Below are positions 7,680 through 14,062 of a stretch of DNA of 35,313 nt, in pieces; the stretch's first letter is position 1; each line of letters opens with the position of its first letter. The position numbers and the translations under genes were made by a program. Source of the DNA: a virus. The stretch lies in the IMG/VR virus record IMGVR_UViG_3300047470_000206, positions 1 through 35,313 of that record. One strand, 5' to 3'. The notes below the pieces were generated by a model. It saw only the letters and a program-made list of their open reading frames with translations, was not told the origin of the DNA and made no database searches.

Positions 7680-7712
7680 GGAGCCCCTGGGTCCTCACTC
7701 CGCAGGGGCTCC
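7680..7712 (-). terminator. Terminator with AGTGAGG loop
   Basis: GGAGCCCCTG (7680-7689) pairs perfectly with CAGGGGCTCC (7703-7712), and on the minus strand the loop contains AGTGAGG. It ends the 7724-8221 transcript. Confidence 0.8.
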
Positions 7713-8319: not shown

Positions 8320-8352
8320 GGAGCCCCCGCGACCTCACTTCGCAGGGGCTCC
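8320..8352 (-). terminator. Terminator with AGTGAGG loop
   Basis: GGAGCCCC pairs with GGGGCTCC across a loop holding AGTGAGG on the minus strand. It ends the 8365-9630 gene. Confidence 0.8.
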
Positions 8353-10439: not shown

Positions 10440-10520
10440 CTTCGAGTGCCCCGGGCGGGATTCGAACCCGCTGGTTACGCCGGACCGGGACGGCAGTGCT
10501 ATCGAATGCTGTGCTCGAAG
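10440..10520 (-). ncRNA. Partial tRNA-like element with a T-arm
   Basis: An intact T-arm (GCGGG-TTCGAAT-CCCGC, 10455-10471 on the complement) and a possible anticodon-type stem GCCG/CGGC are bounded by CTTCGAG and CTCGAAG (7 bp pairing at the two ends). Eight extra bases between the T-stem and the end pairing and the lack of a D-arm rule out a normal tRNA. It overlaps the last codons of the 113-aa gene. Tentative. Confidence 0.35.
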
Positions 10521-10840
10521 TTGATTCGCGCGTCCAGGATGGTGCTTACCTCCTCCCACTCGTCGACCGTCAGGGCGTGCCCCCATCGCGGGTCGCCGTA
10601 GTTGCGGACGTAGCCAGCCAGCGCCTTGATACAGCCCTCCCGCGTGCGCGGCGACGTGACGACGTTCTCCTGCCCCGGTTTTCCGTAGTCGGTCATGACC
10701 GACCACCCGAAGAACGATGCCTCCGCCATCCACACGGAGTAGCGGCCCCAGTGGTGCCAGTCGTACGACAGGCGGGTTGCGCGAGCGCGCGGGATGGCTG
10801 CCAGTTCGGCAGCGGTGATCGGCATCGTCGACGTGGTCAT
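10499..10840 (-). CDS. Hypothetical protein, 113 aa, downstream of a ribozyme
   Basis: Not recognised. The protein begins MTTSTMPITAAELAAIPRAR. A tryptophan-rich middle (DWHHWGRYSVWMAEASFFGW) suggests a compact alpha-beta fold, and the end is a helix (TVDEWEEVSTILDA). ATG 10840 sits behind GGGAGGGGAACG. A hammerhead ribozyme lies between the upstream stop and this ribosome site, so self-cleavage would give this mRNA a new 5' end about 55 nt before the start. Confidence 0.72.
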   Translation of the reverse strand: MTTSTMPITAAELAAIPRARATRLSYDWHHWGRYSVWMAEASFFGWSVMTDYGKPGQENVVTSPRTREGCIKALAGYVRNYGDPRWGHALTVDEWEEVSTILDARINFEHSIR

Positions 10841-10857
10841 GTCGTTCCCCTCCCCTA

Positions 10858-10920
10858 TGGCCTGCCTCATCAGGGCGGGTAGGCCATTCCCCGCCGACGG
10901 CCCGGAGGCCGTTTCGGCTA
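10858..10920 (-). ncRNA. Type II hammerhead ribozyme A
   Basis: All core elements occur in order on the minus strand. GAAAC (10911-10915) opens stem III (ACGGCC-TCCG-GGCCGT). The cleavage triplet GTC (10896-10898) follows, then stem I (GGCGGG/CCCGCC), CTGATGA (10867-10873), and open stem II (GGC with GCC). Loop I (TGGCCT) can pair with AGGCCA just after stem II, a pseudoknot typical of active natural hammerheads. The predicted cut is between 10896 and 10895. The 5' end is the TAG stop of the preceding gene. Confidence 0.88.
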
Positions 10921-11103
10921 AAGACTCGCGCCGCACGCTTCGCAAGCCGTCGCGTCGGACTCCCTGAAGACCATTCCGACGGTCTCCGCGATGCTCACGA
11001 ACCGGCGGGAGATCTCACGACCGCACCAATCCGCGTAGCGGCACACGGGGTGCAGCGTCTCGTCGCCGTTGTCGTCGATCACGGTTACCAACTTGACGCT
11101 CAT
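10918..11103 (-). CDS. Small Cys-rich hypothetical protein, 61 aa
   Basis: First gene after an early promoter. Four cysteines (CRYADWC around residues 21-27; ACEACG near the end) could bind a metal ion. ATG 11103 has GGAGGGGCGG upstream. Its TAG stop forms part of the hammerhead's stem II. Function unknown. Confidence 0.72.
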   Translation of the reverse strand: MSVKLVTVIDDNGDETLHPVCRYADWCGREISRRFVSIAETVGMVFRESDATACEACGASL

Positions 11104-11151
11104 TTCCGCCCCTCCCCTTCGTGGCCCCTCCGTGAGGCCCCTACGTGAACG

Positions 11152-11206
11152 ACTATCGCACACATATGGCGACCAGCACAACATGTCACGCTAGTCGACT
11201 TACGTG
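11152..11206 (-). promoter_or_regulatory. Early promoter with operator palindrome, copy 3
   Basis: Palindrome variant CACGCTAGTCGACTTACGTG (11187-11206), TTGTGC (11176-11181), 18-base spacer, GATAGT (11152-11157). It drives the 10918-11103 gene and probably the ribozyme-separated gene behind it. Confidence 0.6.
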
Positions 11207-11215
11207 ACTTCGGGC

Positions 11216-11980
11216 TCAAGCTGCGGTCGACAACTCCGCCTCCGCCTTGCGAAGATCTTCCTGCGCCCAGACGTCGGACGGCTTACGGGCCACGCGCTCA
11301 CGGGCCTTGATGAGCCGCATGCGCGCGCTCAGCACTTCATCCGTCTGCAACTCGTCAGCCGTACGCGTCCAGTCGACGCCTGCCAACTCGTCGGCAGCCA
11401 CCTGGCGGGCGCGATCGCGTGTCTTGAACACGGTCCCGAGGGAGACACCGCGGGGCTTCTCGTCCGTGGCGGAGGCCAGATGCAGGAACGTCCAGCCGTC
11501 GCCACAACGCTCCAGGGAGAGGCCGGGAAGCGTCTCGTCGACGGCGCGCGCCATGGTCTCCGCTACCTCCCGCGTCGCGTACTCGCCGGGGGCGACCTCG
11601 TCCAAGTAGTCGGGGATCCCCACCTTGAAAGTCACCTTCGGCCACCCTTTGCGGGTGTCGACGTAATTGCACTTCGGCAGGTTGAACTTCCGCAGCCGAC
11701 GCGTCTCGTGCGACTCCTTGGTCTGTCGGATGGCGTTCTCCTTCGCTCGCGCCCCGGAGCCAGCCCAGCCTTCCCGGTCCTTCCAGCGCTTCCGCTCCAG
11801 GGCCGCCATGTCGTCCGTGTGGGCGCGGTCCAGTTCCGCCGTGTGCATCTCCTCCAGCGCCGCCTTCACGGCCTTCGTGTGCGCCGCTTCGAGCTGCTTC
11901 GCGGATCCCGCGCGCTCCGTGCGGACGACACGCTCCACGCCGTAGACACGGACCGTGGTCTCCCGGAAGTCGCTGCTCAT
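11216..11980 (-). CDS. Hypothetical protein with coiled coil, 254 aa, downstream of a ribozyme
   Basis: The N-terminus is a strand pair. Residues 24-95 are a long charged helix (AKQLEAAHTKAVKAALEEMH, then ERKRWKDREGW), likely a coiled coil. The middle has KVTFKVGIPDYLDEV and a segment LGTVFKTRDRARQVAADELA. The C-terminus is helical with lysine and glutamate. ATG 11980 follows GGGGCGGGGAC. No function is recognised. Hammerhead B sits between it and the preceding gene, parallel to the ribozyme A arrangement. Confidence 0.75.
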   Translation of the reverse strand: MSSDFRETTVRVYGVERVVRTERAGSAKQLEAAHTKAVKAALEEMHTAELDRAHTDDMAALERKRWKDREGWAGSGARAKENAIRQTKESHETRRLRKFNLPKCNYVDTRKGWPKVTFKVGIPDYLDEVAPGEYATREVAETMARAVDETLPGLSLERCGDGWTFLHLASATDEKPRGVSLGTVFKTRDRARQVAADELAGVDWTRTADELQTDEVLSARMRLIKARERVARKPSDVWAQEDLRKAEAELSTAA

Positions 11981-11995
11981 GTCCCCGCCCCTTTC

Positions 11996-12057
11996 GGTCT
12001 GCCTCATCAGGCCCGGGAGACCATTCCCGGACGACGCCCCGGAGGGCGTTTCGGCTA
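11996..12057 (-). ncRNA. Type II hammerhead ribozyme B
   Basis: Same architecture as ribozyme A. GAAAC (12048-12052), stem III (ACGCCC-TCCG-GGGCGT), GTC at 12033-12035, stem I (GTCCGGG/CCCGGGC), CTGATGA (12004-12010), stem II (GGC/GCC). Loop I GGTCT pairs with AGACC (11996-12000). Compared with A, both sides of this pseudoknot and of stems I and III change together, so base pairing is conserved. Cleavage is predicted between 12033 and 12032. It starts at the TAG stop of the upstream gene. Confidence 0.88.
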
Positions 12058-12234
12058 GCGGATGGCGGAGGGAAGCAGCCCCGTCGGCTCACCCGCGTTC
12101 AGGCTCTTGGCGATGTGGCGAACGTCGGCGTGAGTGCCGAACGCCCCAAGGCTGGTGACCTTGACCGGACCGGCGGCGCCAGCGTCCGTGCGAGTGACGT
12201 ACCAGTTGAAGCCGTCAGTCCCGGTGCCGTACAT
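12055..12234 (-). CDS. Hypothetical protein, 59 aa
   Basis: A small protein beginning MYGTGTDGFNWYVTRTDAGA, predicted as strands plus a helix (HADVRHIAKSLNAG). ATG 12234 with GGGGAGGCAG. It is the first gene behind early promoter copy 4, and its TAG stop is the 5' edge of hammerhead B. Function unknown. Confidence 0.72.
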   Translation of the reverse strand: MYGTGTDGFNWYVTRTDAGAAGPVKVTSLGAFGTHADVRHIAKSLNAGEPTGLLPSAIR

Positions 12235-12280: not shown

Positions 12281-12336
12281 ATAGTCGCACACATATGGCG
12301 ACCAGCACAACATGCCGCGCTAGTCGACTAGCGCGG
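12281..12336 (-). promoter_or_regulatory. Early promoter with perfect operator palindrome, copy 4
   Basis: A perfect 22-bp palindrome (12315-12336) with core CGCTAGTCGACTAGCG, then TTGTGC (12305-12310), 18 bases, GACTAT (12281-12286). This is the most symmetric of the operator sites. Confidence 0.65.
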
Positions 12337-12345
12337 AACGACCGA

Positions 12346-14003: not shown

Positions 14004-14024
14004 GTGCTCTCTCCTCTGTGATGC

Positions 14025-14051
14025 GCCCCTGTCGCCTCACTCGTCAGGGGC
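14025..14051 (-). terminator. Hairpin with AGTGAGG loop in the leader of 13020-14003
   Basis: GCCCCTG (14025-14031) pairs with CAGGGGC (14045-14051), with AGTGAGG in the loop on the minus strand. It lies between an operator palindrome and the ribosome site, so transcripts arriving from the sigma operon must read through it. Confidence 0.65.
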
Positions 14052-14062
14052 TGCGGATGATT

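Follow-up and report, generated by a model that had tools for sequence, protein, structure and literature searches.

What are the two similar blocks that fill junctions between small genes in this phage contig, and what might they do there? The window, the whole 35,313-nt stretch analysed, is a 35.3-kb contig related to Streptomyces phage Samy, carrying a serine integrase, a sigma factor and a DNA polymerase; the similarity to Samy supports the actinophage assignment made in a preliminary description of this DNA. That description had proposed two type II hammerhead ribozymes, A and B, and by sequence and covariance search we located both elements on the minus strand where it had placed them. 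The ribosome-binding sites, palindromes and ribozyme parts below were read from the sequence.

Two hammerhead elements in the window

Minus-strand features, in order of transcription:
12285-12340, minus strand: repeated upstream element, CGCCATATGTGTGCGA plus a TAGTCGACTA palindrome, preceding the ORF1a-ribozyme-ORF2a unit
12055-12234, minus strand: ORF1a, 59 aa, ending at the TAG that opens ribozyme B (ORF list and sequence)
11993-12057, minus strand: ribozyme B (RF02276, 63.2 bits, and sequence); stem II 12055-12053 with 12003-12001; stem III 12049-12034, UCCG loop; predicted cleavage C17 12033 / 12032; stem I 12032-12011; CUGAUGA 12010-12004
11995-12023, minus strand: pseudoknot of B, loop I UGGUCU 12023-12018 with tail AGACCG 12000-11995 (sequence, helix 4 covariation, tail-swap test)
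11983-11993, minus strand: ribosome-binding site of ORF2a, AAGGGGCGGGG, immediately 3' of the pseudoknot tail
11216-11980, minus strand: ORF2a, 254 aa, downstream of ribozyme B
11156-11211, minus strand: repeated upstream element, second copy, preceding the ORF1b-ribozyme-ORF2b unit
10918-11103, minus strand: ORF1b, 61 aa, ending at the TAG that opens ribozyme A (ORF list and sequence)
10856-10920, minus strand: ribozyme A (RF02276, 46.4 bits, and sequence); stem II 10918-10916 with 10866-10864; stem III 10912-10897, UCCG loop; predicted cleavage C17 10896 / 10895; stem I 10895-10874; CUGAUGA 10873-10867
10858-10886, minus strand: pseudoknot of A, loop I UGGCCU 10886-10881 with tail AGGCCA 10863-10858 (sequence, covariation)
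10847-10856, minus strand: ribosome-binding site of ORF2b, AGGGGAGGGG, immediately 3' of the pseudoknot tail
10499-10840, minus strand: ORF2b, 113 aa, downstream of ribozyme A (phrog_26751, E 2e-12, unknown function)

No relatives were found for ORF1a or ORF1b in Pfam, PHROG or by tblastn in phage records, for ORF2b by tblastn in phage records, or for ORF2a and ORF2b in viral contigs; ORF2a matched a Samy hypothetical protein by tblastn (41% identity over 55% of its length). The repeated upstream element, which a sigma-70 consensus scan did not recognise, is a probable promoter or operator. A CGCTAGTCGACTAGCG-like palindrome occurs seven times in the window (8295, 9700, 11186, 12315, 14062, 15254 and 27946); close to three of these, an exact CGCCATATGTGTGCGA precedes a gene unit on the minus strand, and together they are probably a shared promoter or operator. 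Other repeats include three related 33-nt hairpin-like elements, GGAGCCCC...GGGGCTCC (7680-7712, 8320-8352 and 14022-14054), and 92-nt inverted repeats, 78% complementary, near both contig ends (2041-2132 and 34218-34309), the left one holding an inner 33-nt palindrome. Just after ORF2b, at about 10447-10469 on the minus strand, lies a T-arm-like GCGGGTTCGAATCCCGC piece for which neither ARAGORN nor Rfam called a tRNA.

Each element lies on the sense strand between co-directional phage genes and covers the Rfam Hammerhead_II model (RF02276, cut-off 37 bits) fully, from position 1 to 66: B at 12056-11993 (E 5e-11) and A at 10919-10856 (E 1e-6). No further copy was found in a scan of the whole contig, and 14 control genomes gave no RF02276 match above the cut-off. 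Every part named in the preliminary description was legible in both copies. In B the order is TAG-CC-GAAA-C...GUC / GUCCGGGAAUGGUCUCCCGGGC-CUGAUGA-GGC-AGACCG followed by AAAGGGGCGGGGAC-AUG, and A has the same order. Both thus have the invariant CUGANGA and GAAA core, a GUC cleavage triplet of the NUH type, and a three-way junction with closed stems I and III and an open 3-bp stem II (GCC/GGC), in which stems I, II and III covary. The nucleotides it had predicted to carry the 5'-OH, 10895 and 12032, were correct. The ribozyme fills the space from the upstream TAG (10920-10918 in A, 12057-12055 in B) to the next gene's ribosome site, also as proposed, and the outer base of stem II is the G of that TAG in both copies.

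Covariation and core conservation

Copies A and B differ by 11 substitutions, which altered four pairs on both sides with pairing kept (one in stem III, two in stem I, one in the pseudoknot), altered one pair on one side and broke none. When these substitutions were placed at random, at least four doubly hit pairs arose in 36 of 200,000 trials. In an alignment of 16 relatives that share this architecture, bases paired in 96.7% of cells and 14 of the 21 pairs showed double changes, the compensatory changes in homologues that had been anticipated; no shuffle of 500 scored as high, and sliding the partner by one column lowered pairing to about 40%. This alignment is gap-free and replaced a first MAFFT alignment, which had set a one-base stem I insertion outside the stem.

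A pseudoknot between loop I and the 3' tail is usual in type II hammerheads, not universal. Each window copy has six such pairs, and four of the six showed double changes in the 16 relatives. As the pseudoknot played no role in picking sequences, it provides an independent test: among the matches listed from viral contigs, 65 of 82 long-loop ribozymes had at least four Watson-Crick loop-tail pairs, against 24.4 (maximum 37) after tails were swapped. Phage type II hammerheads in these listed matches formed two classes, and in the short-loop class, whose stem I region is mostly 17 nt, the same tail-swap test found no pseudoknot beyond chance.

Active hammerheads tolerate substitution of position 7 and of the cleavage base. 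In 58 distinct ribozymes from R4-type phages (see below), the core varied only there (T 44, C 14 at position 7; C 53, T 4, A 1 at the cleavage site), but covariance searches are biased towards intact cores, and we take this result as support, not proof, that catalysis is under selection. Among stem III loops, UNCG and GNRA tetraloops were the most frequent, and these are well suited to a 3' hairpin with a protective role.

Placement next to stop codons

The same arrangement occurs in more than 100 other phages, the cultured phage R4 among them. A pattern scan of viral contigs with fixed CCGAAAC and CTGATGAGGC returned at least 120 stretches, and the stop-codon figures that follow describe the majority class with those motifs, among the matches listed. 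In 142 distinct flanks, stop codons peaked 3-8 nt before the core and none fell from -2 to +6. Because the upstream gene could not be called as the longest frame in GC-rich Streptomyces loci, the test was redone frame-free, with random and antisense controls and, in its final form, one ribozyme per contig with dissimilar flanks (n = 100). A stop 3-8 nt before the core closed a frame of at least 30 codons in 74 of the 100 contigs, whereas random positions gave 5.5% and the antisense strand 7 of 100; a Shine-Dalgarno sequence and start codon followed downstream in 64 of 100 (7.3% at random). Stop-adjacent placement is a general rule for phage type II hammerheads, one that could come from genome compaction alone. 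The AUG inside CUGAUGA was rejected as a start codon, being in frame in 36 of 116 cases where about one third is expected.

Could A and B nevertheless be chance or inactive hammerhead-like sequence? Copy A does have a competing structure: a nested fold other than the hammerhead is the most stable (-33.7 versus -27.9 kcal/mol, pseudoknot energy left out), while in copy B the hammerhead is the best nested fold. However, the RF02276 scores, pseudoknot test, covariation, core and placement all lie far beyond chance, and we regard this explanation as extremely improbable. Judged from their sequence, A and B are almost certainly type II hammerhead ribozymes.

BLAST with a 75-nt block led to named Streptomyces phages. 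Whole-record scans found nine hammerheads in R4, 12 in Paedore, 11 in Thestral, ten in Celia, 11 in Alvy and ten in Puginator, all Arquatrovirinae-type phages. These hammerheads are unannotated and confined to one gene arm, all on the minus strand at 41-51.6 kb with none elsewhere in the records.

Hammerheads in R4-type phages and annotations that overlap them:
NC_054671, NC_054670, NC_054655, NC_054669, PP978857 and NC_019414, arm at about 41-51.6 kb, minus strand: 9-12 hammerheads each
NC_019414 (R4), 41762-41845: gp60.1, annotated on a hammerhead
NC_019414 (R4), 44125-44217: gp67.1, annotated on a hammerhead
NC_019414 (R4), 47073-47174: gp75.1, annotated on a hammerhead
NC_019414 (R4), 45302-45832: OCR-like antirestriction gene gp72, start annotated on a hammerhead

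The arm also has genes for ThyX, dNMP kinase, acetyltransferase or antirestriction proteins. Most of the hammerheads fall in gaps of the deposited annotation, and arm gaps of at least 55 nt held a ribozyme in 11 of 14 cases in Paedore, 8 of 9 in Thestral, 9 of 11 in Celia, 6 of 6 in Alvy and 9 of 13 in Puginator. R4 departs from this pattern, its ribozymes being overlapped in the annotation by the short genes gp60.1, gp67.1 and gp75.1 and by long gene starts; since they sit on hammerheads, these three gene annotations and the gp72 start are probably wrong. Spacing from stop to ribozyme is looser in the R4-type phages, from 0 to about 45 nt.

Closer to the window phage, relatives of its sigma factor are encoded in nine viral contigs. 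In six of these (L130, with two copies, L131, L133, L134, L136 and L137), type II hammerheads lie on the strand that carries the sigma gene and about 1-2.3 kb downstream of it, an arrangement shared by B in the window. Scans found no type II hammerhead in L132, L135, L138 or Samy, and the ribozyme is therefore dispensable. The same block occurs in genomes of S. microflavus, S. fulvorobeus, S. piniterrae and Streptomyces sp. NRRL S-337, presumably in prophages; of 150 Streptomyces genomes drawn evenly, two passed the cut-off, making it a rare trait in hosts. A lemur-gut phage, Dulem virus 39, has a hammerhead at 4066-4002 that is 86% identical to ribozyme B, with flanking genes not recognisably related to those of the window.

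Downstream genes vary among related Streptomyces phages, where a near-identical block of ribozyme and ribosome site stands ahead of unrelated small genes. Several contigs hold 4-10 copies, and A and B are about 80% identical from the TAG to the base before the AUG. Beyond both ends the similarity stops: of the 60 flanking nt, 18 match on one side and 22 on the other. Such blocks might be kept mainly as mobile or recombination-linker modules (stop, ribozyme, ribosome site) for swapping small genes, with cleavage incidental. A linker needs sequence identity and not catalysis, whereas the stems and pseudoknot diverge freely with pairing kept and the core varies only where activity tolerates it. 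We therefore consider this explanation unlikely.

Possible function and known systems

In our assessment, the ribozymes quite probably cut polycistronic phage mRNA co-transcriptionally into hairpin-ended pieces. We observed the fold, covariation, core conservation and placement, and we infer that cutting occurs in cells, which ends its products have and how the phage would benefit. Each hammerhead would cut its two-gene transcript once during synthesis, at 12033/12032 (B) or 10896/10895 (A). The 3' end of the upstream message, a few nucleotides past its stop codon, would be the stable stem III hairpin with its UCCG cap, carrying a 2',3'-cyclic phosphate. The downstream message would open with a 5'-OH followed by the hairpin of stem I, which would probably stay folded onto the tail immediately ahead of the ribosome site. 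The likely benefit would be independent lifetime and translation of the two genes, as with engineered ribozyme insulators. Counting against this explanation are the competing nested fold of copy A, the absence of the dispensable hammerhead from L132, L135, L138 and Samy, and the chance that stop adjacency stems purely from genome compaction. In addition, since each window unit probably has a promoter of its own, cutting would affect a single junction per transcript, and the advantage is less obvious than in R4-type phages.

The ribosome site lies immediately 3' of the pseudoknot tail and, given the 3-8 nt spacing, a ribosome terminating at the adjacent stop codon would sit over the GAAAC core. 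The ribozymes might accordingly be switches, gated by ligand, protein or ribosome, that govern the downstream gene rather than constitutive cutters. We think this quite unlikely, as alignments show no extra conserved domain or aptamer, the downstream genes are unrelated, and stop-to-ribozyme spacing in R4-type phages ranges from 0 to 45 nt. A specific form of gating for stop-abutting hammerheads, in which a ribosome terminating on the upstream gene keeps the GAAAC strand open and cutting follows only once that gene has been read, seems doubtful to us, though a little less so. If it were true, the roughly ten sites in R4-type phages would yield single-gene messages in step with translation.

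RiboJ-type insulators self-cleave upstream of a ribosome site to give a 5'-OH, hairpin-led message free of upstream context; they were engineered from a satellite-RNA hammerhead of another permutation and are placed after a promoter, not between genes. The window ribozymes likewise precede a ribosome site, and cleavage here is predicted.

Intercistronic phage hammerheads are already known as a kind. Perreault et al. 2011 (PMC3088659) described hammerheads clustered around prophage genes and proposed mRNA processing; 14 of 18 tested were active, native 2-kb multi-gene transcripts were cut in vitro, a cloned triple array was cut in E. coli, and a halovirus transcript had its 5' end at most 3 nt from the cleavage site. 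Those RF02276 hammerheads share with ours the permuted fold, core, loop I/3'-tail pseudoknot and position between phage genes of changing identity. What ours add, as far as the accessible passages of that paper go, are a new host group (Streptomyces phages), the measured stop-codon rule and the 9-12 copies per R4-type genome. HF1-group haloviruses also tie a hammerhead to a phage polycistronic transcript; according to PMC3088659 and PMC7230728 it is an archaeal-virus variant at the 5' end of an early transcript, with the mapped 5' end at the cleavage site, and unlike here it is not set between small genes. The preliminary claim that such use is not well described was therefore too strong in general, but for Streptomyces phages we found no account of such use in the literature we could search, nor of the stop-codon rule or the dense R4-type arrays, most subscription journals lying outside that scope. 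A link to aminoglycoside inhibition of phages was set aside, as the paper concerned cites hammerhead binding as background only.

Several short R4 genes and gene starts coincide with ribozymes, which calls for correction of the annotation. The purpose of bacterial and phage hammerheads has been a question since their discovery in 2011, and the stop-codon rule places a sharp constraint on the answer. The message-cutting idea is directly testable in cultured phages, namely R4 (Streptomyces coelicolor) and Paedore and Alvy (S. lividans).
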